DNA of 64,000 bases from Mesobacillus jeotgali (GTDB lineage: Bacteria; Bacillota; Bacilli; Bacillales; Cytobacillaceae): contig NZ_CP109811.1 of NCBI RefSeq assembly GCF_014856545.2, forward strand, positions 1,482,001-1,546,000, read 5' to 3'. Under the pieces are notes generated by a model, which was not told where the DNA came from, made no database searches, and worked only from the letters and a program-made list of their open reading frames with translations. Position numbers and translations under genes: made by a program. Of this stretch, positions 34,800 to 62,194 are shown in pieces; the stretch's first letter is position 1; every line of letters begins with the position of its first letter.

Positions 34800-34823
34800 G
34801 TGGGAAGAAAAGAGGTGAGGCTA

Positions 34824-35570
34824 TTGCTAAGTTTATTGTTCATGGCAAAGAAAAAGCGCAGGCCGCTGGAAGAAACCGTAGAAAAGATCCACCAGGGGGA
34901 TGTTGCTTTAAGAGAAGAATTAATTGATTCTTACAAGCCATTTATTGCAAAGACTGTTTCGTCTGTCTGCAAGAGATACATACATGAGTCGGACGATGAA
35001 TTTAGCATTGGCCTCATCGCTTTTAATGAGGCAATCCAGAAATATTCATCTGAAAAAGGGAATTCATTATTAAGCTTTGCAGAAGTCATGATTAAGCGAA
35101 GGGTAATTGATTATATCCGCCAGCAGAGCCGGAATCAAAACCTGAGCTTCCATATATCGAATGACCCGACTGAGGAAGAACAACAGAGGTCGACGATTGA
35201 AGATGAGCTTTCTCTTGATGAGTTTAGAAAGAAAACTGAACAGGAACTCAGAAGAGAAGAAATCATTCAATTCCAGGGTATCCTGAAAGATTTCGACCTA
35301 TCTTTCCAGGACTTGCTCGAGCAGTCGCCTAAACATGCAGATGCGCGTAAAAACGCCATGCTTGTTGCAAAATCAATGGTTGAAAACGAGGAGTTAAAGA
35401 ATTTGCTTCTTGATAAAAAACGCTTGCCAATCAAGCAATTAGAAGACATGGTCAATGTCAGCAGAAAAACCATAGAGAGAAACAGAAAATATATTATTGC
35501 AATTGCACTTATTTTAATTGGGGATTATGTATATCTAAAGGATTATATTAAAGGGGTGTTAGAGACATGA
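34824..35570 (+). CDS. sigI: RNA polymerase sigma factor SigI
   Basis: 248 residues (B. subtilis SigI 251). Diagnostic stretches: YKPFIAKTVSSVCKRYI, DDEFSIGLIAFNEAIQKYS, FAEVMIKRRVIDYIRQQ and the C-terminal VSRKTIERNRKYIIAIALILIGDYVYLKDYIKG. The TTG start matches the LLSLLF beginning of homologues and follows AGAGGTGAGG. SigI governs heat and cell-wall stress genes in Bacillus. Its stop overlaps rsgI (ATGA), giving translational coupling with its anti-sigma. Confidence 0.95.
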   Translation: MLSLLFMAKKKRRPLEETVEKIHQGDVALREELIDSYKPFIAKTVSSVCKRYIHESDDEFSIGLIAFNEAIQKYSSEKGNSLLSFAEVMIKRRVIDYIRQQSRNQNLSFHISNDPTEEEQQRSTIEDELSLDEFRKKTEQELRREEIIQFQGILKDFDLSFQDLLEQSPKHADARKNAMLVAKSMVENEELKNLLLDKKRLPIKQLEDMVNVSRKTIERNRKYIIAIALILIGDYVYLKDYIKGVLET

Positions 35571-36628
35571 GAAAAGGGGTTATCCTTGAAATCAATGATC
35601 TTTACCTAACATTGTTGACCCCCGAAGGCGAGTTTTTACGGGCCCGAAAGCTTCAACAAGATTATCAGGTAGGAGAAGAAATTCACTTTTTTCCAGAAAC
35701 GCTAACAGTTAAAAAGAAAAGATTCAATCTATCGTTTTTAAATAGCTTTAAGACAAGAAGTATTGCGCTTGCAGCAGTATTCATGCTTGCGATGACTGCG
35801 CTTGTTCCTGCGTACCAAAACGGACAGGTTTACGCTTATATGTCCATTGATGTTAATCCAAGCATTGAACTGGCAGTAAATGATGATTTAAAGGTCCTTC
35901 GTATGAAAGGGTATAATCCTGAAGGGGAAGAAATCATAGCGGAGATAAAAGACTGGAAGAAGAAGGATGCAGCGACGGTGGCAGAAATGATCCTTGAGGA
36001 AATCGAGGAAGAGGGATTCTTCAAAGAAAAGAATGATGTTGTCATCGCAACGGTCCATAATAAAAAGGCAAAAGAATCTGTTGATCAAAAGTTAGAAAAA
36101 AAGATATCTGAAATTAAAAAATCAAAACAAGATGAAGACCTGAATTTCAAGGTTATGGAGGCCACAAGTGAAGACAGGGAGAAGGCCCAAAAGCAGGGTG
36201 TAACAACGGGTGTATACAAGGAAAAGCAAAAAGATATACCAAGGCCTGCAGTAAAGCCTGCTGACAAGCTTAAAAAAGCCAACCCAGAGCCTGGCAAGAA
36301 AAAACCTGCTGAAACTGTTGTTCCACAACCTGAAAAGAAGGTACCGCCAGGTCAGGATAAGAAGAATAATCCTGAAGTTCCGAAAGGGAAATCGAACAAA
36401 GAAAAACCGTCCGTACCTGAAAAAGGCAAAGGAAACAGCAATAAAGACAAAAACAATAATGGCCAGGGCAACAACAAACAGGCTAATAAGAGCAACAAGA
36501 AAAATAACGGTGTTGATCAGGACGGCAAGCAATATAAAAATGAAAAAAAGCCTGACACACAGCAGGGACCCAGCAGCAAGAACAGGGGACAAGCAGGAAA
36601 AAATAAAGACAATCCTGGCAAAAAATAG
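35567..36628 (+). CDS. rsgI: Anti-sigma-I factor RsgI
   Basis: 353 residues. The N-terminal RsgI domain (~1-55) binds SigI in the cytosol; one transmembrane helix lies at ~65-82. Just outside, YMSIDVNPSIELAVN contains the Asn97-Pro98 bond, the conserved site of spontaneous cleavage in RsgI proteins. Residues ~215-353 are a Lys/Asn/Pro/Gly-rich disordered tail ending in NPGKK. The tail probably senses the wall or an extracellular polymer. Transcribed with sigI, ends at a strong terminator. Confidence 0.93.
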   Translation: MRKGVILEINDLYLTLLTPEGEFLRARKLQQDYQVGEEIHFFPETLTVKKKRFNLSFLNSFKTRSIALAAVFMLAMTALVPAYQNGQVYAYMSIDVNPSIELAVNDDLKVLRMKGYNPEGEEIIAEIKDWKKKDAATVAEMILEEIEEEGFFKEKNDVVIATVHNKKAKESVDQKLEKKISEIKKSKQDEDLNFKVMEATSEDREKAQKQGVTTGVYKEKQKDIPRPAVKPADKLKKANPEPGKKKPAETVVPQPEKKVPPGQDKKNNPEVPKGKSNKEKPSVPEKGKGNSNKDKNNNGQGNNKQANKSNKKNNGVDQDGKQYKNEKKPDTQQGPSSKNRGQAGKNKDNPGKK

Positions 36629-42628: not shown

Positions 42629-42671
42629 TTTGATATATGTCACAGCTTAATGAATGTAAAGTCTATAAAAT
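42629..42671 (+). promoter_or_regulatory. Fnr-like box and promoter of the ferredoxin oxidoreductase operon
   Basis: TTTGA-TATATG-TCACA (42629-42644) differs from TGTGA-N6-TCACA at one base. TATAAAAT (42664-42671) supplies a -10 box in either register, placing the box centre 39.5-41.5 bp before the start site. No -35 hexamer is evident. The rest of the 328-bp gap is AT-rich without other features. Confidence 0.5.
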
Positions 42672-42731
42672 TATTAGTGGGGAATGTTTTAAAGTCAATT
42701 ACCTTTTATAACCAAATTGGGGAGGGAGATT

Positions 42732-43745
42732 ATGTCTATCTTACCGAAAAAGAATGAATTAGGTTTTTATGAGATACGGCTAGAGTCGATTGGAGGGCTT
42801 GGTGCAAACCTTGCTGGAAAGATGCTTGCGGAAGCAGGTGTTTTGGGCCTTGGATTAAACGGTTCCAACTTTTCTTCATATGGATCGGAGAAAAAAGGAT
42901 CGCCGGTGAAAAGCTTTATCCGTTTCTGTGAACCTGATACTGAGATCAGGGTTCATAGTCCAATAGAAGAGCCGCATGTTGTTGGTGTATTCCATGAGGC
43001 ACTTTATAAAATGGTCGATGTAGTCAGCGGTTTGCGCCCAGACGGGATTCTGCTGGTGAATTCAACGAGAGACTTTGACGATATCAAAAAAGATCTTCAT
43101 CTAGAGCATGGAACACTTGCAATTGTTGATGCACTTTCAATCGCAGTGGAAGAAAAAACGAAAGTAAATACAGCGATGCTAGGAGCATTGTACCGCATCA
43201 TTGACTTCCTTGATCCCGAAGCGATGAAAAATGTCATCCGCAAAACTTTTGAAAAGAAATATCCTCATTTAGTCGAGCCGAATATCAGAACGTTCGAGAG
43301 AGGCTACAATGACGTTCATTTTAAAACATACGCACCTGAAGAAGGTGCAAAGGGCAAAGAATTCAAACGTCCAATGCCGCTTCTTGGTTATGAAACACAA
43401 GAAATCGGCGGTGTGATTACAGCGCAGGCAAACAGCGTCCTCAAGGATTTAAGCGGTTCCAGACAGGGATTCCTGCCCCAATTCAATCAGCAGGAATGCA
43501 TCAACTGCGCTGCATGTGATACTGCATGTCCTGATTATTGCTTTGTTTGGGAAGAGGGAGAAGACAAACGAGGCAGAAAGCAAATGTTCCTAAAGGGAAT
43601 CGATTATCAATATTGCAAAGGCTGCCTGAAGTGTGTAGAAGCATGTCCTACTACTGCATTAAGTGAGCTGAGGGAAATGATCGGCTATGCTGAGGAGAAT
43701 CAAGTTAAACATAACTATCCTTATGTGACTGGAGGGGTTTCTTAA
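42732..43745 (+). CDS. 2-oxoacid:ferredoxin oxidoreductase, fused gamma and ferredoxin (delta) subunits
   Basis: 337 residues. Residues ~10-190 are the gamma domain (IRLESIGGLGANLAGKML, GSNFSSYGSEKKGSPVKSF). Residues ~245-320 carry two [4Fe-4S] motifs (CINCAACDTACPDYC and YCKGCLKCVEACP). Together with the next gene this makes a complete pyruvate-type oxidoreductase that forms acetyl-CoA, CO2 and reduced ferredoxin in the cytosol. ATG 42732 follows GGGGAGGGAG. The stop overlaps the next start (TAATG). Confidence 0.88.
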   Translation: MSILPKKNELGFYEIRLESIGGLGANLAGKMLAEAGVLGLGLNGSNFSSYGSEKKGSPVKSFIRFCEPDTEIRVHSPIEEPHVVGVFHEALYKMVDVVSGLRPDGILLVNSTRDFDDIKKDLHLEHGTLAIVDALSIAVEEKTKVNTAMLGALYRIIDFLDPEAMKNVIRKTFEKKYPHLVEPNIRTFERGYNDVHFKTYAPEEGAKGKEFKRPMPLLGYETQEIGGVITAQANSVLKDLSGSRQGFLPQFNQQECINCAACDTACPDYCFVWEEGEDKRGRKQMFLKGIDYQYCKGCLKCVEACPTTALSELREMIGYAEENQVKHNYPYVTGGVS

Positions 43746-46039
43746 TGTCTGTTCTTGAAGAAAATGTGAAGGCAATGAGTACAGCAGAGCAGGTGACAAC
43801 CTTTGAATCAGGAAATGAAATGGCGGCGATGGCTGCAGCTCAAATTAATTATCATATTATGGGCTATTTCCCGATTACCCCTTCTACAGAAGTTGCACAG
43901 TATCTGGATATGATGAAATCCAGGGGAGAGCATGATATCAAATTGATTCCTGCGGATGGAGAACATGGTTCTGCAGGAATCTGTTATGGAGCAGCAGCAA
44001 CCGGAGCCCGCGTGTTCAACGCAACAAGCGCTAACGGGTTGATGTATATGCTTGAGCAGCTCCCGGTCCAATCCGGTACACGTTATCCAATGGTCTTAAA
44101 CCTGGTAACTCGTTCAATCAGCGGTCCGCTTGATATCCGCGGTGATCATTCAGATTTGTATTTTGCGTTAAATACAGGATGGGTTATTCTGACCGCCAGG
44201 ACACCACAGGCTGTCTACGATATGAACATAATGGCACTGAAAATCGCAGAACACTCAGATGTGCGACTGCCTGTAATGGTAGCTTATGATGGCTTCTTTA
44301 CATCTCACCAAAAACGCAAAGTGAACTATTTCAAGGATAGGGCTGTTGTACAGAGATTTGTTGGCGAAGCACCGACGGAATATAATTTTGCCAGAGATCC
44401 TAAGAAGCCGTTGACAATCGGAGCGCACATGAATGGCGACGACTTGACCAACAACCACTTCCAGCAGTCAGAAGCAATGTACAGAGCGAAGGATGTTTAT
44501 AAAGAAGTAGCAGCAGAATATGCAAAACTATCAGGAAGAAACTATGATATCCTTGACCTTTATCAAATGGAAGATGCTGACGTAGCACTGTTCCTATTGA
44601 ACTCAGCAGCAGAGTCTGCAAAGGATGTTGTAGACAGACTTCGTGAGAAGGGAATCAAAGCCGGCGTTATCAGTCCAAATATCATCCGGCCGTTCCCTGC
44701 ACAAGAAATCAGGGAAGCACTGAAGAATGTCAAATCACTTCTTGTTGGTGAGCGAGCAGACTCCTACGGTGGACATGGGCCTAACCTAACGCACGAAATT
44801 AAGTCCGCGCTTCAGGAAGACAGGGAAAATACGACAATCGTCCAGAGCAGGGTGTTTGGACTTGGCGGCAAGGACTTCTATGCAGATGATGCTGAAGCAT
44901 TTTTCGGTATGGCAATTGACGCTATGGAAAAAGGATACGCAGAAAAGCCGTTCGACTACTACGGACATGTTGCTGGCGATCCTGAAAAAGCATTGAAGCA
45001 AGTCATTGAACCGCAGCATGGCGATGTCTATAATTCAGGACTGATCCAGGTAACAAGAGATGAAGAAAAGAATAAATTGAATGTCAAAATTCCGCCTTTA
45101 AGAGCCTTGACTACAAAGCCGAAGCGAATTGCGTCAGGTCATGGCGCATGTCCAGGCTGCGGCATCTTCGGCGGACTGGAGCTATTCTTTAAAGGGATTG
45201 AAGGAGACCTCGTCATACTATTCCAAACGGGCTGTGCTTATGTAGTCACAACTGCGTATCCTCACACATCCCATAAGCAGACGACAATCCATAACCTGTT
45301 CCAGAATGGGGCGGCAACGTTATCAGGTACTCTCGAAGCATTCCTTGAACTGAAGCGACGCGGTGAAATCGAAGTGTCAGCAGATGCGACCTTCGTTATG
45401 GTTACCGGAGATGGCGGTATGGACATTGGCATGGGTTCGGCTATCGGTACGGCACTTCGCGGACACAAACTGATCATGCTCGAATACGATAACGAGGGTT
45501 ATATGAACACCGGGTCCCAGCTTTCCTATTCCACTCCTTTCGGCCATATGACGAGCACATCAAACGTCGGAAAGGCACAAAAGGGTAAAGCGTTCCATCA
45601 TAAGGATACAGCCCAGATCATGGCATCTACCAATATTCCTTATGTATTCACTGGAACGGAAGCCTTCCCGCAGGACCTAGTGAAAAAGGCCGCAAAGGCT
45701 CAGTGGTATGCGCAAAATGTAGGTACTGTTTACGGTAAACTTTTGATAACATGCCCGCTCAACTGGAAATCTGAGGATCGCTTTGGCCAGACAATTGTCG
45801 AAGCAGCTGTGAACTCGAACTTCTTCCCGTTATACGAAGTGGAACAAGGTATCACAAATATAACTTATGATCCTGAAGCGAAAAATAAGAAGATCCCATT
45901 AGCAGATTGGCTGAAATATATGGGAAAAACCAAGCATTTATTAAAAGAAGAAAATAAAGATATGCTTGTAGAATTTGAAGAAGAAGTCGAAAAAAGATGG
46001 CAGCGTCTTAAAGCAAAACATGAGAACGAGTATCTATAA
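43745..46039 (+). CDS. 2-oxoacid (probably pyruvate):ferredoxin oxidoreductase, fused alpha and beta subunits
   Basis: 764 residues. Alpha part (~20-440) begins with GNEMAAMAAAQINYHIMGYFPITPSTEVAQYL. Beta part (~450-764) has HGACPGCG, TGCAYVVTT and a later ITCP Cys for a [4Fe-4S] cluster, plus the thiamine-diphosphate motif GDGGMDIGMG...YDNEGYMN. Alpha-beta fusion with a separate gamma-delta fusion is a compact two-gene layout. Pyruvate is the likely substrate from similarity to POR; 2-oxoglutarate or other 2-oxoacids are not excluded. Such enzymes are O2-sensitive, which fits the Fnr-like promoter. Confidence 0.85.
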   Translation: MSVLEENVKAMSTAEQVTTFESGNEMAAMAAAQINYHIMGYFPITPSTEVAQYLDMMKSRGEHDIKLIPADGEHGSAGICYGAAATGARVFNATSANGLMYMLEQLPVQSGTRYPMVLNLVTRSISGPLDIRGDHSDLYFALNTGWVILTARTPQAVYDMNIMALKIAEHSDVRLPVMVAYDGFFTSHQKRKVNYFKDRAVVQRFVGEAPTEYNFARDPKKPLTIGAHMNGDDLTNNHFQQSEAMYRAKDVYKEVAAEYAKLSGRNYDILDLYQMEDADVALFLLNSAAESAKDVVDRLREKGIKAGVISPNIIRPFPAQEIREALKNVKSLLVGERADSYGGHGPNLTHEIKSALQEDRENTTIVQSRVFGLGGKDFYADDAEAFFGMAIDAMEKGYAEKPFDYYGHVAGDPEKALKQVIEPQHGDVYNSGLIQVTRDEEKNKLNVKIPPLRALTTKPKRIASGHGACPGCGIFGGLELFFKGIEGDLVILFQTGCAYVVTTAYPHTSHKQTTIHNLFQNGAATLSGTLEAFLELKRRGEIEVSADATFVMVTGDGGMDIGMGSAIGTALRGHKLIMLEYDNEGYMNTGSQLSYSTPFGHMTSTSNVGKAQKGKAFHHKDTAQIMASTNIPYVFTGTEAFPQDLVKKAAKAQWYAQNVGTVYGKLLITCPLNWKSEDRFGQTIVEAAVNSNFFPLYEVEQGITNITYDPEAKNKKIPLADWLKYMGKTKHLLKEENKDMLVEFEEEVEKRWQRLKAKHENEYL

Positions 46040-51008: not shown

Positions 51009-51060
51009 CCTAATTAACAAATTTACTTTAACCAATTAAATAACTTGATTAAATTATTTT

Positions 51061-51213
51061 CTTATCAAGAGCAGGCGGAGGGACGAGCCCGATGAAGCCC
51101 GGCAACCGATCCAGCATTTAGCTGGGCACGGTGCTAATTCTTGCAGCGAAAGCTGAAAGATGAGAAGAGTTTAGTGTATTTTCTAACCTCTTCTTTGTGA
51201 AGAGGTTTTTTTA
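51061..51213 (+). ncRNA. SAM-I (S-box) riboswitch with terminator
   Basis: Conserved S-box core: CTTATCAAGAGCAGGCGGAG, GGGACGAGCCCGATGAAGCC, CGGCAACCG, the pseudoknot-bearing loop and AAAGATGAGAAG. A terminator hairpin AACCTCTTC/GAAGAGGTT with seven T follows (51184-51213). High SAM should stop transcription before mtnW. Confidence 0.95.
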
Positions 51214-54800: not shown

Positions 54801-54844
54801 TTTAGCCACTGCCAATAAACCGGCGGTGGCTAAAGTGTTTTTAT
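54801..54844 (+). terminator. Terminator of the Spo0E-like gene
   Basis: TTTAGCCACTGCC and GGCGGTGGCTAAA arms, then T-rich tract. Confidence 0.85.
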
Positions 54845-55403
54845 AAGAGCAAAAAAATTTAACAATTTGCTCAAATTTTCACGATAATGTATCTTTGTGT
54901 GATTTTTATCATATTTTTATAGGATTATTTTATATATTTTTAACATAGATAGCTTCTTATCATCAATCTGCTAATGCACCTCTCATCTTGTAACTTTCAA
55001 TAATTTTTTTACAGCTGACTTTAGTATGTTTATGAAAGTTTATCCTCATTTTTCTTAAAACAATATCACCTATGTTATCTACTTTTTTAATTGTTGGTAC
55101 TATGCATGTAATACGATTCATATATCGTACTACATAGCATTTTATTTATATAAGGCTGTGTGAAAAGCAACTATCTGGATTTGTCATAAATTAATGTCAC
55201 ATAAGCCTGTATTACAGCTGTTTTATAATACTCGTTTTCTGCAGGGGCTAAAGCCATCTGAACAGGAGGGTTTTTCTTGGTATCAAAAATTCCTTCCTTA
55301 TTAAATTACCCTTCATATTAAAGAAAACGTTTTAAACGAAAACAGCTAAAAGTAACCGCTTACAAATTAATAGTTTTACATTTTGAGGAGGGGAAAAGAG
55401 AGT
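54845..55403 (+). promoter_or_regulatory. Long fixA upstream region with hairpin, short ORF and two cre-like boxes
   Basis: About 560 bp without a normal gene. Visible: TGTGA-TTTTTA-TCATA (54898-54913, one mismatch to Fnr); a long hairpin at ~55099-55139 (CTATG...CATAG enclosing TACGAT/ATCGTA); a TATAAT at 55224-55229; and a 14-codon frame 55277-55321 starting TTG behind GGAGGG. Cre-like sequences are at 55331-55346 (TTTTAAACGAAAACAG) and, on the other strand, 55351-55366 (TTGTAAGCGGTTACTT). Each cre-like box has one core mismatch. Which promoter drives fixA is not certain. Confidence 0.5.
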
Positions 55404-56231
55404 ATGCACATTGTCGTTTGTGTCAAGCAAGTGCCCGATACAAAAATTATCAAAATCAATCCTAAGACCAATACTCTGGACAGGCGAAGCGCACCAGCCA
55501 TTTTGAATCCTTATGATGCTCACGCTGTACAGGAAGCAGTCAAAATCAGGAATAAAACAGGAGGAACTATTTCTGTTCTTTCAATGGGGCCGCCTCAGGC
55601 TGTCGCTGTTATTAAAAAAAGTGTAGAAATTGGCGCGGATCGCGGATACCTGATCTCAGACAGAGCATTTGCAGGAGCAGATACCCTTGCTACAAGCTAT
55701 GCGCTCTCCAAAGCGCTTGAAAAAATTTCGAAGGATAATCCGATAGACTTAGTCATTTGCGGGAAGCATGCGATCGATGGTGACACAGGACAAGTAGGAC
55801 CAGGAATTGCCCGCCGGCTTGATATACCTCCAATCACGAATGTTATTGAAGTTTCAGAGGTTAATAAGAAAGAGAAATATGTTCACATAAAGCGTAAGCA
55901 AATCGATGGCTACGAGGTGCTTGAATCACAGCTGCCTTGCTTACTGACTGTTGAAAAAGAGATTAATGACATAGAATATGCACCGCTTCCAAATATGATC
56001 AATGCGGCACGATATGAACCGGTCATCTGGTCTGTGAATGACCTTGAGGATGTTGACAAGACGCAATTGGGTTTAAAAGGATCTCCAACGATTGTTGGCA
56101 AGATGTTCAGTCCTCCAAAACTTGAAGGCGGGAAAAGGATTGAAGGAAATCCTGATTCACAAGTAGAGCAGTTAATGGGAATTTTAATGGAAAGAAAAGA
56201 TTTATTGAAATTAAAAACAGCCAACTCTTGA
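55404..56231 (+). CDS. fixA: Electron transfer flavoprotein beta subunit, FixA type
   Basis: 275 residues. MHIVVCVKQVPDT start, LNPYDAHAVQEAV, VLSMGPPQA, CGKHAIDGDTGQVGPGIARRL (ETF-beta signature). Pairs with FixB to hold FAD. In FixABCX this subunit binds the bifurcating flavin and receives electrons from NADH. ATG 55404 follows TGAGGAGGGG. First gene of a four-gene operon with 26-bp or shorter gaps. Confidence 0.9.
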   Translation: MHIVVCVKQVPDTKIIKINPKTNTLDRRSAPAILNPYDAHAVQEAVKIRNKTGGTISVLSMGPPQAVAVIKKSVEIGADRGYLISDRAFAGADTLATSYALSKALEKISKDNPIDLVICGKHAIDGDTGQVGPGIARRLDIPPITNVIEVSEVNKKEKYVHIKRKQIDGYEVLESQLPCLLTVEKEINDIEYAPLPNMINAARYEPVIWSVNDLEDVDKTQLGLKGSPTIVGKMFSPPKLEGGKRIEGNPDSQVEQLMGILMERKDLLKLKTANS

Positions 56232-56257
56232 TTCGATTTAAAAGGGGGAATAGCAGA

Positions 56258-57283
56258 ATGGAAGAAAACCAGGGAGTCTGGGTATTCATTGAAGTAAATG
56301 ATGGAAAAATCGAAGGAGTTTCACTGGAATTACTGGGTGCAGGAAGGAAGCTTGCCGACAAGCTGGAAGTGCCGCTTTCCGGGGTTATGCTTGGGGAAGG
56401 TGTCATGCCTTTAGCTAATGAAGTGATATATGCTGGTGCAGACCAAGTATATGTCGTTGACCATCCTGTCCTGAAGGATTATCGAACTGAGTCCTTCATG
56501 AAGGGAGTCTGTACACTTGCTGAAAAATATAAGCCAGAAATTTTCCTTTATGGAGCAACACCAAATGGAAAGGACCTGGCGAGTGCGGTTGCAACGGATC
56601 TAAGTACTGGTTTGACAGCTGATACGACGATGCTTGATGTCGATATTGAGAAAAGGCTGCTCGAAGCCAGCCGTCCTGCTTTTGGCGGAAATATAATGGC
56701 AACCATTCTATGTAAAAAACACAGGCCGCAAATGGCAACGGTACGGCCTAAGGTGATGAAAGCCCTTGAAACAGATGAAGGCAGGAAGGGAGTCATCATT
56801 GAAGAAGAGCTAGAACTTCGCGAAGAGGATATGCGCACAAAAGTGCTTAAAATTGTGAAGGATGTAACAAAAAAAGCAAGCCTTGCTGAAGCCCATGTCA
56901 TCGTGGCTGGCGGAAAAGGACTAGGCGATATCCAGGGATTCCAGCTAATTCATGAGTTAGCGGAAGTTATCGGTGCAAGTGTTGGAGGTACAAGGGATGT
57001 GGTTGAGGCAGGATGGCTGAAGCATGAGCAGCAAATAGGCCAGACTGGCGAGACTGTCACTCCGAAAATCTATTTTGCGATCGGTATTTCAGGGGCAATC
57101 CAGCATGTCGAGGGGATGAAAAACTCTGAGCTGATCATTGCCATCAACAAGGATCCAAACGCTCCAATTTTCGATGTAGCCACTTATGGCATTGTCGGGG
57201 ATGCCTTAGAAATTGTACCGAAACTGATCAAGCAGTTCAAGGAGCTCAGCAAAGAGAAGGGCGGGGAAATGAGCTATGTCTGA
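56258..57283 (+). CDS. fixB: Electron transfer flavoprotein alpha subunit, FixB type
   Basis: 341 residues. N-terminal QGVWVFIEVNDGKIEGVSLELLGAGRKLAD, mid GATPNGKDLASAVATDL. The C-terminal FAD domain has GGKGLGDIQGF, VGGTRDVVEAGW, GQTGETVTPKIYFAIGISGAIQH and INKDPNAPIFDVATYGIVGD (ETF-alpha signature). ATG 56258 follows AAGGGGGAATAG. It overlaps fixC by 8 bp. Confidence 0.92.
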   Translation: MEENQGVWVFIEVNDGKIEGVSLELLGAGRKLADKLEVPLSGVMLGEGVMPLANEVIYAGADQVYVVDHPVLKDYRTESFMKGVCTLAEKYKPEIFLYGATPNGKDLASAVATDLSTGLTADTTMLDVDIEKRLLEASRPAFGGNIMATILCKKHRPQMATVRPKVMKALETDEGRKGVIIEEELELREEDMRTKVLKIVKDVTKKASLAEAHVIVAGGKGLGDIQGFQLIHELAEVIGASVGGTRDVVEAGWLKHEQQIGQTGETVTPKIYFAIGISGAIQHVEGMKNSELIIAINKDPNAPIFDVATYGIVGDALEIVPKLIKQFKELSKEKGGEMSYV

Positions 57284-58571
57284 AAAATTTGATGTAATCG
57301 TCGTAGGAGCCGGCCCTGCTGGAACGTCATGTGCATACAACTGTGCCAAAAACGGACTGAAAGTATTATTGATAGAGCGTGGTGAATACCCGGGATCGAA
57401 GAACGTCATGGGCGGAGTTCTTTACCGTAAGCAAATGGAGGATATCATTCCGGAGTTCTGGAGAGAAGCCCCTCTCGAAAGGCCGGTTGTTGAGCAGCGA
57501 TTCTGGATGATGGATAAAGAATCGGTTGTCCAGTTTGGTTATAAAGGTCTCGAATGGGCGGTTGAACCATATAATAACTTTACAGTACTGCGTGCACATT
57601 TTGACCAATGGTTCGCACAGAAAGCTGTCGAACAGGGTGCGTTGTTGATAAATGAAACAGTTGTTACTGAATGTATCGTAGAAAATGGCAAGGTTATAGG
57701 GGTGCGTACCGACCGCCCTGATGGAGAAGCATTTGCCGATGTTGTCGTGCTTGCAGATGGTGTAAACTCCCTGCTCTCCAAGCAGCTTGGCTTCCACAGG
57801 GAATTCCGTCCTGATGAAGTTGCCCTGACGGTTATGGAAGTAATCAATCTGCCGAAGGACAAAATAAATGAACGCTTCAATCTTGAAGGAAATCACGGAA
57901 CTACGATTGAGATTTTCGGTGATTCAACACAAGGCAATCTTGGTACCGCCTTCCTTTATACTAACAAGGAAAGCTTGAACATCGGTGTAGGAACTACACT
58001 TTCAAGCATGATCAAAGCTAAATTGAAGCCATATGAGCTGCTTGATTACCTGAAAAAACATCCAATGGTTCGTCCTTATCTAGAGGGAGGGGAATCGGCA
58101 GAGTACCTGGCCCACTTAATCCCTGAAGGGGGATTCAATTCCGTGCCAAGGGTTGCCGGAAACGGTGTGCTTGTAGTAGGAGATGCTGCCCAGCTGGTAA
58201 ATGCCATTCACCGTGAGGGCTCAAACATGGCGATGGCTTCAGGGCAAATGGCAGCAGAAGCCATCGTAGAAGCCAAAAATGATGGCGACTTCAGCGAGAA
58301 CAGCCTGAACCGCTATAAGGAAGCATTGTTCGGCAGCTTCATTATTAAAGACCTTGAAAAATATAAGGATGCTGCACATACCTTTGAGACATACCCGCAA
58401 TATTTCAAGGAATATCTGCCAATGATGAACAAAGCAATGAGCAAGTTCTTCACAGTAGATGGAACACCTAAGAGAGAAAAACAAAAGGAAATCATGCGCA
58501 GCGTGACGGCTGAAAAAGGAACCTTTAAAGTAATGCAAGACATCTATCGTGCCTGGAAGGCGGTGAAATAA
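57276..58571 (+). CDS. fixC: FixC, ETF:quinone oxidoreductase-like flavoprotein
   Basis: 431 residues. FAD-binding VVGAGPAGTSCAYNCAKNGLKVLLIERGEYPGSKNV at the N-terminus, LADGVNSLLSKQLG, and VGDAAQLVNAIHREGSNMAMASGQMAAEAI near ~300. Homologous to ETF-QO but without its ferredoxin domain, which is supplied by FixX. Passes the high-potential electron to menaquinone at the membrane. Overlaps fixB (8 bp) and fixX (TAATG). Confidence 0.92.
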   Translation: MSEKFDVIVVGAGPAGTSCAYNCAKNGLKVLLIERGEYPGSKNVMGGVLYRKQMEDIIPEFWREAPLERPVVEQRFWMMDKESVVQFGYKGLEWAVEPYNNFTVLRAHFDQWFAQKAVEQGALLINETVVTECIVENGKVIGVRTDRPDGEAFADVVVLADGVNSLLSKQLGFHREFRPDEVALTVMEVINLPKDKINERFNLEGNHGTTIEIFGDSTQGNLGTAFLYTNKESLNIGVGTTLSSMIKAKLKPYELLDYLKKHPMVRPYLEGGESAEYLAHLIPEGGFNSVPRVAGNGVLVVGDAAQLVNAIHREGSNMAMASGQMAAEAIVEAKNDGDFSENSLNRYKEALFGSFIIKDLEKYKDAAHTFETYPQYFKEYLPMMNKAMSKFFTVDGTPKREKQKEIMRSVTAEKGTFKVMQDIYRAWKAVK

Positions 58572-58855
58572 TGTCAACGACAAACATCGAGGAAAAACAA
58601 TTTCTTTTAAGGTTTAAGTGTGACACGAAATCACATCTGACAGTTTTGGACCATGACGTCTGCATGACGCAGTGCCCTGACAAACTCTGTACCGTATTTT
58701 GCCCGGCTGAAGTATACAAGTGGGAAGGGAAAAGGATGCAGGTAGGCTATGAAGGCTGTCATGAATGCGGCAGCTGCCGGATCGGCTGCCCTTACCAGAA
58801 TATCAAATGGGAATATCCAAAAGGCGGACACGGAATCGTATTCAGGCTAGCCTGA
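58571..58855 (+). CDS. fixX: FixX ferredoxin-like protein
   Basis: 94 residues. A classical [4Fe-4S] motif CHECGSCRIGCP lies at ~67-78, with a second Cys group CMTQCPDKLCTVFCP at ~33-47, as in FixX. Connects FixC to the quinone pool. Ends the operon before a strong terminator. Confidence 0.92.
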   Translation: MSTTNIEEKQFLLRFKCDTKSHLTVLDHDVCMTQCPDKLCTVFCPAEVYKWEGKRMQVGYEGCHECGSCRIGCPYQNIKWEYPKGGHGIVFRLA

Positions 58856-58872: not shown

Positions 58873-58908
58873 AAAAGACCGGCGGACAAATCGTTCGCCG
58901 GTCTTTTT
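58873..58908 (+). terminator. fixABCX terminator
   Basis: AAAAGACCGGCG and CGCCGGTCTTTTT arms, 11-nt loop. The following ~220 bp hold no recognisable feature. Confidence 0.88.
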
Positions 58909-59605: not shown

Positions 59606-59649
59606 TTGTGATGCCTATCACAACTGAGACTTCAATTGCTTTTTATAAT
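59606..59649 (+). promoter_or_regulatory. Fnr-type box and class II promoter of the hemerythrin gene
   Basis: TTGTGATGCCTATCACAA (59606-59623) is a perfect TGTGA-N6-TCACA palindrome. TATAAT at 59644-59649 puts its centre exactly 41.5 bp before the predicted start site, the standard Fnr/CRP class II position. The inner bases (TGCCTA) do not fit Rex. Confidence 0.75.
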
Positions 59650-60308: not shown

Positions 60309-62194
60309 GTGCGCCCGGCATGGGTGCAATCTATAGGGTGCAAGTCCCGAGCCACGAAGGCAGTAGTAGTGGTTAGCTTAACGCAAGGGTGTCCGCGGCG
60401 ACGCGGAATCTGAAGGAAGCGAGCGGCAAACCTCCGGTCTGAGGAACACGAACTTCATACAAGGCTAGGTACCATTGGATGAGTTTGCTACACAAAACAA
60501 AGTCCTTACTGCCGAAGGTGGTACAGAGTAAATGAAGCAGATAGATGGAGGGAAAGATTGTACTCTTACCCGGGGAGGTCTGGTTGAAACGCCAAGTACA
60601 CTTGGTAACCTATTTAGCAATAAATAGCTGAACAACCAGAAGTCAGCAGAGGTCATAGTACCTTACCGACTCGAGACGGTAGGGGAAGGACTGAACAATT
60701 AGGAAGAACGAGAACTAGGTATACAATTCCTGTGTAGAAGCAGACAATCCGAAAGGACTTACTTGAAGGAGGACGTGGTGAATTCCACAGGGGACTTCAG
60801 GAGGGTGGAGCAGGAATAACATAATTAGACTTCTACGTTCACGTCGAAAGGAAATATCACATGTTAATGGATCTGATTCTGTCACGGGAAAACTTAATAG
60901 AAGCACTTAAACGTGTGGAGAAGAACAAAGGGAGTCACGGCATAGATGGAATGTCCGTAAAATCCCTACGAAGATATCTCTATGAAAACTGGGACACCCT
61001 TTGTGATTCTTTAAGGAAAGGTACCTATCAACCTAACCCAGTCCGTCGAGTCGAAATCCCGAAACCGACCGGAGGAGTTAGATTACTAGGAATACCTACC
61101 GTGACAGACCGGTTCGTTCAACAGGCTATCGCTCAAGTTTTAACCCCGCTCTTTGACCCAACCTTCTCAGAACATAGTTATGGGTTCAGGCCAAATCGAA
61201 GAGGCCATGACGCTGTTCGTAAAGCAAGGGGATATATAAGCGAAGGTTTCAGATGGGTGATAGACATGGACTTGGAGAAGTTCTTTGACAAAGTGAATCA
61301 TGATAAGTTGATGGGGATATTGGCAAGCAGAATCCAAGACCGATTGGTCTTGAAATTAATACGGAAATATCTCCAAGCAGGAATCATGATAAATGGTGTA
61401 GTCTACGATGCAGAAGAAGGAACACCACAAGGAGGTCCACTGAGCCCTCTTCTTTCGAATATCCTTTTGGATAAGCTTGATAAAGAGTTAGAAAGGAGAG
61501 GGCACAAGTTTGTCCGCTACGCCGATGATTGTAATATCTACATGAAATCGAAGAAAGCTGGAGAACGAGTGATGAACTCGATTACATGCTTCATCGAGCA
61601 GAAATTAAAGCTCAAAGTAAATAGAGAGAAATCAGCGGTTGACCGCCCGTGGAAACGAAAGTTCCTTGGCTTTAGCTTTACGGTTAATAAGAAACCGAAG
61701 GTTCGAATAGCCAATGAAAGTATTAAAAGGCTTAAAGCCAAAATACGAGAGCTAACCTCCCGTTCTAAACCAACCCCTATGGAAGTTAGAATTGAGAAAC
61801 TGAATCAATATCTAACGGGATGGTGTGGATATTTTGCATTGGCTGATACACCAAGTAAATTCAAAGAATTTGATGAGTGGATTAGAAGAAGACTTCGTAT
61901 GATTGAATGGAAACAATGGAAGAACCCCAAGACAAGAGTAAGAAAGCTCAAAAGTCTAGGCGTTCCTGATCAAAAGGCATACGAATGGGGAAACTCCAGA
62001 AAGAAATACTGGAGAATAGCCTCTAGTCCAATTCTACACAAAACCCTCGATAACTCTTACTGGAGTAATCGAGGGCTCAAAAGTCTATATCAAAGATATG
62101 AATTTCTACGTCAAACTTAATTGAACCGCCGTATACCGAACGGTACGTACGGTGGTGTGAGAGGTCGGGGGTTAGTCACCCCCTCCTACTCGAT
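60309..62194 (+). mobile_element. Group IIC intron with encoded reverse transcriptase
   Basis: The 5' end GTGCGCCCGGCATGGGTGCA and the following ~500 bp match the Oceanobacillus iheyensis/B. halodurans IIC intron RNA closely, including GGGTGTCCGCGGCGACGCGG and GGAACACGAACTTCATA. Domain V is at ~62123-62157 and domain VI ends CTACTCGAT. The RT gene sits in domain IV. It lies directly after a terminator hairpin, the known target choice of class C introns. The 3' end (AT at 62193-62194) is set by the AY rule and could shift by a base. Confidence 0.92.
60861..62120 (+). CDS. ltrA: Group II intron reverse transcriptase/maturase
   Basis: 419 residues, intact. RT blocks: KGSHGIDGMSVKSL, KPTGGVRLLGIPTVTDRFVQQAI, SYGFRPNRRGHDAV, VIDMDLEKFFDKVNHDKL, GTPQGGPLSPLLSNILLDKLD, catalytic YADD at 220-223, then FLGFSF. 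A maturase (X) region follows; no HNH endonuclease domain, as is usual for class IIC. AAAGGAAAT precedes ATG. The symbol is generic for intron-encoded proteins. Confidence 0.93.
   Translation: MLMDLILSRENLIEALKRVEKNKGSHGIDGMSVKSLRRYLYENWDTLCDSLRKGTYQPNPVRRVEIPKPTGGVRLLGIPTVTDRFVQQAIAQVLTPLFDPTFSEHSYGFRPNRRGHDAVRKARGYISEGFRWVIDMDLEKFFDKVNHDKLMGILASRIQDRLVLKLIRKYLQAGIMINGVVYDAEEGTPQGGPLSPLLSNILLDKLDKELERRGHKFVRYADDCNIYMKSKKAGERVMNSITCFIEQKLKLKVNREKSAVDRPWKRKFLGFSFTVNKKPKVRIANESIKRLKAKIRELTSRSKPTPMEVRIEKLNQYLTGWCGYFALADTPSKFKEFDEWIRRRLRMIEWKQWKNPKTRVRKLKSLGVPDQKAYEWGNSRKKYWRIASSPILHKTLDNSYWSNRGLKSLYQRYEFLRQT

Follow-up and report, generated by a model that had tools for sequence, protein, structure and literature searches.

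We report that a window of 64,000 nucleotides from Mesobacillus jeotgali (contig NZ_CP109811.1, positions 1,482,001 to 1,546,000 of the forward strand, in a 4.84-Mb genome on a single contig) carries an intact fixABCX operon at 55404-58855, which a tree and conserved residues support as a complete FixABCX of group 2 of the bifurcating electron transfer flavoproteins (ETFs). By "the window" we mean this whole stretch, and coordinates are counted from its first letter. Judging from these sequence comparisons, the complex probably bifurcates the electrons of NADH to menaquinone and ferredoxin, and would thereby supply ferredoxin for reductive steps under sugar scarcity.

The fixABCX operon and its ETF class

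As read from the open frames, the four genes are co-directional and tightly spaced, with a 26-bp gap between fixA and fixB, an 8-bp overlap between fixB and fixC, and a 1-bp overlap between the fixC stop and fixX. The NCBIfam names of the four proteins agree with their Pfam families, and none of the four reached a curated NCBIfam cut-off. The stem past fixX was read by eye, its loop exceeding the length limit of our terminator scan.

55404..56231, + strand: fixA, 275 residues, EtfB-like, with the bifurcating FAD site by homology; Pfam ETF
56258..57283, + strand: fixB, 341 residues counted from the ATG, EtfA-like, with RPAFGG; Pfam ETF plus ETF_alpha
57276..58571, + strand: fixC, 431 residues, quinone-side flavoprotein; Pfam FAD-oxidoreductase families
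58571..58855, + strand: fixX, 94 residues, two cysteine motifs for [4Fe-4S] clusters; Pfam Fer4_ETF_QO
58873..58908, + strand: likely operon terminator, GC-rich stem and T run

An earlier, sequence-only reading of this DNA had seen here a four-gene FixABCX with a two-cluster FixX. The frames, spacing and Pfam families bear out the first point, and the cysteines of FixX the second, since eight of its nine align with cysteines of chain D of 7KOE, the EtfABCX of Thermotoga maritima, in two cluster motifs.

The class assignment is carried by a tree of concatenated FixA/EtfB and FixB/EtfA (22 sequences, a small reference set; 614 columns, LG+G4). The Bacillaceae FixAB form one clade there (support 100/100), which groups at 91.9/91 with nif-linked FixAB encoded on three symbiotic plasmids. 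A split at 100/100 sets the Bacillaceae FixAB apart from the canonical clade, to which human ETF, a non-nif Rhizobium ETF and the genome's own ETF belong. FixAB do not group with the beta-oxidation ETFs in this tree and fall with the bifurcating group, as the earlier naming of an electron-bifurcating ETF implied. Matches to solved structures separate the ETF groups poorly, because the genome's own canonical EtfB (1EFP first with a score of 151, the bifurcating chain CarD second with 134) and EtfA (highest scores to bifurcating chains) also score bifurcating chains high. Within that limit, FixA, FixC and FixX each match a chain of 7KOE best among solved structures, over nearly their full length, with FixA scoring 222 bits against 7KOE and 79 bits against human ETF, and FixB ranks CarE (6FAH) first and 7KOE second.

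The expected bifurcating residues were recovered in part. FixB has the arginine motif RPxFGG, as RPAFGG at residues 139-144; in T. maritima the arginine within this motif, 140, is essential for bifurcation according to passages of PMC10734219. FixA has SPTIV at 227-231, the SPTxV part of GxxSPTxV, a motif that as printed in the source has one residue fewer ahead of SPT than 7KOE and FixA do. Against the bifurcating assignment stands RxGV, which reads RRSA here, with the R38-equivalent arginine kept. The same departure runs through the Bacillaceae sequences of the tree, as RRSA in the five of type I and RRTA in the six of type II (the second paralogue, described below), and among the other sequences with the bifurcating signature only an Enterococcus plasmid ETF deviates from RxGV (RDSS). 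Nevertheless, the departure does not exclude group 2, because the passages of PMC10734219 at hand place RxGV in "most" group 2 sequences and report that T. maritima variants at RxGV retained part of their activity; R38, P239 and V242 are described there as less important for bifurcation.

Distribution in the family and the split locus

Our family sample comprised 193 genomes from 25 genera, and with a threshold of E <= 1e-60 we found FixC in 163 of the genomes and 20 of the genera. When the tables were compared by eye, a bifurcating-type FixB (E-value 6.5e-100 or better) was present in all 163 FixC-positive genomes, and all 30 FixC-negative genomes were also without it (best E-value about 1e-77, or no match). 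For the neighbourhood we used the best 80 of 290 confirmed FixC relatives, among which the closest in named genomes include those of M. boroniphilus (99%, best segment) and M. selenatarsenatis (98%). A spo0E-like gene lies upstream at 78 of these 80 loci, a small reverse-strand gene downstream at 71, a hemerythrin gene at 50 and a major facilitator superfamily gene at 60, and all four occur together at 41 of the 70 loci that span 13,230 bp or more. fixABCX is thus a core, largely syntenic locus of this Bacillaceae family sample, and its breadth together with its synteny implies that the operon is old. The sequence-only reading had regarded it as a respiratory tool uncommon in the group, which these counts contradict. 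The Pfam FixX control gave no match in B. subtilis or E. coli, and since E. coli, which possesses FixX, was also missed, it cannot prove that B. subtilis lacks FixX.

Two side observations belong to this survey. Within the genus of the window, one genome (G084) is without fixC, bifurcating-type fixB and the oxidoreductase treated below, a possible loss of the block. Four records titled Chryseobacterium, Paenibacillus or Pseudomonas (L008, L028, L059, L066) hold FixC 84-98% identical to that of this genome and are probably misnamed or contaminated.

Four regions fetched from other family members (L128, L129, L130, L131) each hold a complete second fixABCX, a paralogue of about 68% identity. In Neobacillus fumarioli (L034) and N. 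thermocopriae (L056), the locus keeps fixC (86-87% identical to that of the window) and fixX (89%), and fixC is preceded by short, weak remnants of fixA (tblastn E-values 0.1 and 0.01). Genomes G109 and G159, which we equate with those of L034 and L056, respectively, because the contig coordinates are identical, each show a single FixC match and a second FixB, 67-68% identical, whose fixAB genes have no fixCX adjacent. In the tree the two pair together (99.9/100), and the split may thus go back to a single event. The full set of four subunits is retained, divided between two loci, which speaks for a functional unit of all four; FixCX and second-type FixAB would then assemble together from separate loci. 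That FixCX acts without FixAB in the two species was dropped as a firm inference in view of this second fixAB.

The split locus bears on whether the complex might have lost bifurcation altogether and become a plain NADH or ETF:menaquinone oxidoreductase. Such a loss would fit the two species whose locus has kept fixCX but not fixAB, and likewise RRSA in place of RxGV, but both species have another fixAB of the bifurcating type elsewhere in the genome, RPxFGG and SPTxV are retained, and no FixC-positive genome of the 163 is without the bifurcating-type FixB. We consider the loss improbable, and favor a bifurcating complex.

Candidate control elements ahead of fixA

The region between the upstream spo0E-like gene and fixA holds a conserved element together with predicted regulatory sites, for which the scans used cre and FNR consensus sequences.

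54801..54834, + strand: terminator-like stem of the upstream spo0E-like gene (stem scan)
54898..54913, + strand: predicted FNR-like inverted repeat, 1 mismatch
55096..55150, + strand: conserved leader element, a hairpin or palindrome with CATATATCGT core, then a T run
55350..55365, + strand: predicted cre-like (CcpA) site that departs from the scan consensus at 1 position
2540-2555, 2598-2613, 42629-42644, 54898-54913 and 59607-59622: FNR-like/Rex-like repeats, five of the nine in the window

In the leader element, GTACTATGC, CATATATCGT and GCATTTT follow one another in this order, with a variable arm in each of the two intervals. Among the 78 leaders in which the fixA start could be located, namely the window's and those of 77 loci, 73 contain the element, and its core starts 80-99 nucleotides (nt) ahead of fixA in 57 of the 73 and 75-79 or 120-392 nt ahead in the others; a covariance model detects it in 77 of 81 sources, window included. 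Searched against whole genomes under strict filters, by which weak matches may be lost, the model matched 132 of the 193 genomes a single time each, and none of the FixC-negative ones. Directly upstream of fix genes lie 130 of the 132 matches, 126 of them on the contig and strand of fixB, 892-1202 nt ahead of it, and four more ahead of fixC. Of the remaining two, one is in a genome without a listed fix place for comparison (G069), and the other, on another contig of G059 with an E-value of 0.009, is probably false.

Hairpin folding of the element gave a mean z of -3.6. Of the 62 distinct sequences, 56 fall below z = -2; the six that fold no better than this count against an RNA structure, as does RNAalifold, which predicted no consensus structure for the element. 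Double changes occur in 8 of 16 pairs of a structure-fitted alignment (2 of 500 shuffles), where the covariation score was reached by 0 of 500, and in an unfitted 28-sequence alignment the double-change pairs are not above shuffles (236 of 500) and the covariation score is (2 of 500). A genome-wide operator was rejected: the core has one exact site in the genome, and four others with two mismatches against one for the reversed control. A role as terminator of the upstream gene is unlikely: the spo0E-like gene has its own stem at 54801-54834 and so does not need the fix leader hairpin, and the core-to-fixA distance is mostly 80-99 nt. Read by eye, the element gave no consistent fit to a sigma-54, sigma-E or sigma-A promoter; promoter-like sites in the leader region were not above shuffles (8 versus 11.5), and Rfam returned no family in the leader, with a single sub-threshold microRNA match (E-value 0.07). 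Our reading is a cis-acting element specific to fix, which would work either as an RNA hairpin or as a palindromic DNA operator.

As counts over related loci, and hence not independent tests, a cre-like site with at most two mismatches was found in the last 100 nt before fixA in 56 of the 78 leaders (against about 6% of shuffled ones) and an FNR-like site with at most one mismatch in 18 of 78 upstream regions (about 2% of shuffles). The cre-like site suggests that the operon is used when preferred sugars are absent; the 22 leaders without one at that limit speak against it, and among eleven leaders listed the four without a site are three from Cytobacillus and one from Robertmurraya. Across the window, FNR-like/Rex-like TGTGA-N6-TCACA repeats with at most one mismatch number nine, against 2.0 in shuffled sequence, and none of 100 shuffles reached nine. 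The 42.7-kb oxidoreductase has one such repeat ahead of it, and the hemerythrin gene an exact one.

Candidate electron partners and relation to known systems

The likeliest reading is that the four genes specify a membrane-associated FixABCX (EtfABCX) complex in which FixAB would accept two NADH electrons at the bifurcating FAD, one passing through a second FAD, FixX and FixC to menaquinone, and the other reducing ferredoxin. The low-potential ferredoxin would then most likely feed reductive steps, be they ferredoxin-dependent enzymes, NADPH formation through ferredoxin-NADP reductase, or the neighboring 2-oxoacid:ferredoxin oxidoreductase, with expression when preferred sugars are scarce, through the cre-like site and the fix-specific leader element.

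As to partners, the whole genome has no PF00148 match for NifDK (the control search matched 4 of 14 genomes), so that the sequence-only remark that no nitrogenase gene lies nearby extends genome-wide for NifDK, and the nitrogenase that would mark a nif-associated Fix was not found in the same genome. We also looked for a ferredoxin or flavodoxin partner: the genome has one Fer4_13 ferredoxin (82 residues), and its sole Flavodoxin_1 (PF00258) match, a 201-residue frame, looks to us like WrbA, so that this family gave no ordinary flavodoxin. Reduced ferredoxin could, however, be supplied without Fix by three 2-oxoacid:ferredoxin oxidoreductases (proteins with a POR_N domain), a point against the proposed role; one of these lies inside the window.

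42717..43745, + strand: 2-oxoacid:ferredoxin oxidoreductase, gamma-delta fusion; conserved neighbor (Pfam, NCBIfam)
43745..46039, + strand: 2-oxoacid:ferredoxin oxidoreductase, alpha-beta fusion; conserved neighbor (Pfam, NCBIfam)

Relatives of the alpha-beta protein are found in 145 of the 193 genomes: 138 have both it and FixC, 25 FixC only, seven the oxidoreductase only and 23 neither (Fisher p 6e-11, not an independent test because the genomes are related and the genes neighbors). Among the 120 genomes with both places among the matches listed, the oxidoreductase lies upstream of fixC on the same strand at 3.0-16.1 kb in 109; ten of the others have it on a different contig, and one at a great distance. 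Four fetched regions show the oxidoreductase, one gene, the spo0E-like gene (with a reverse-strand gene in one) and then fixABCX; in the window, methionine-salvage genes and others stand between the two. The sequence-only reading had linked fixABCX to this enzyme as a pyruvate:ferredoxin oxidoreductase (42.7-46.0 kb), and the linkage holds as a conserved neighborhood, but the enzyme cannot be the sole partner, because 25 of the 163 FixC-positive genomes are without it. A PAS histidine kinase gene follows the two fusions, and a SAM (S-adenosylmethionine) riboswitch at 51059-51166 precedes the methionine-salvage genes.

The linkage raises the question of whether FixABCX specifically powers the neighboring oxidoreductase in carboxylation, for example of acetyl-CoA with CO2 to pyruvate, in an anaplerotic or gluconeogenic role within a respiring member of the Bacillaceae. 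Proximity on the same strand, the few genes between in the four regions, the co-occurrence and the cre-like site before fixA would all agree with this. We nevertheless regard it as unlikely, since a sizeable minority of FixC-positive genomes do without the enzyme, its substrate is only putative (the alpha-beta protein is below every curated NCBIfam cut-off), and co-loss in related genomes may reflect block deletion of neighbors; moreover, 2-oxoacid:ferredoxin oxidoreductases in aerobes are usually oxidative. It is similarly doubtful, if conceivable, that in respiring Bacillaceae FixABCX and the linked oxidoreductase form one module under CcpA and the family-specific, once-per-genome leader element, in which ferredoxin made by bifurcation at the menaquinone pool would drive reductive carboxylation or other ferredoxin-dependent synthesis under sugar limitation. 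Confurcation, with reduced ferredoxin from 2-oxoacid oxidoreductases and menaquinol yielding NADH, could draw on the three such enzymes, one a conserved neighbor, but by our own sum it would run uphill at the ferredoxin, NADH and menaquinone potentials quoted in passages of PMC10734219, and we think it highly improbable. Bifurcation from NADH is therefore the direction we prefer. Taken as a whole, the earlier interpretation keeps its bifurcating-group FixABCX, its lack of NifDK, its ferredoxin and its link to the oxidoreductase, and loses the rarity in the group.

Elsewhere in the window, group II intron RNA domains and an intron-type reverse transcriptase frame (the frame being our reading of the sequence) occupy 60392-62120, and a sigma-factor domain protein is followed by an RsgI-like anti-sigma protein at 34800-36628.

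Passages of PMC5861303 summarize in vitro evidence for bifurcation by Azotobacter vinelandii FixABCX, and passages of PMC6085437 put 53% of surveyed Fix homologs in aerobes and state that the physiological role of Fix in several non-diazotrophs is unknown. We found no paper on FixABCX with Neobacillus or with Cytobacillus, in a literature search largely without subscription papers. A family-wide fixABCX in culturable soil-type bacteria, with a conserved neighbor and control elements and with two-locus encoding in two species, makes the role of Fix complexes without nitrogenase testable by gene removal.

The system is of a known kind, to which the leader element, the conserved oxidoreductase linkage and the split locus are additions. 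With T. maritima EtfABCX (7KOE), which passages of PMC10734219 likewise describe as not tied to nitrogen fixation, it shares the four subunits, RPxFGG and SPTxV, and it differs in RRSA for RxGV, in its Bacillaceae host, and in having its own gene neighborhood and leader element. The nif-linked FixABCX of plasmids from Sinorhizobium fredii, Cupriavidus taiwanensis and Rhizobium leguminosarum are the nearest group in the tree and have the same ABCX order, whereas they adjoin nif genes and their FixB are about 46-51% identical. The Fix-class enzyme of Caldalkalibacillus thermarum TA2.A1, for which passages of PMC7561548 suggest a role in glutamate synthesis, is likened here by description. Canonical ETF, both human (1EFV) and the genome's own etfAB at 3573.5-3577.0 kb (where the adjoining frame is, in our reading, enoyl-CoA hydratase-like), belongs to the same fold family, PF01012, but is without the KQVPD, SPTxV and RPxFGG signatures and stands as a separate clade.

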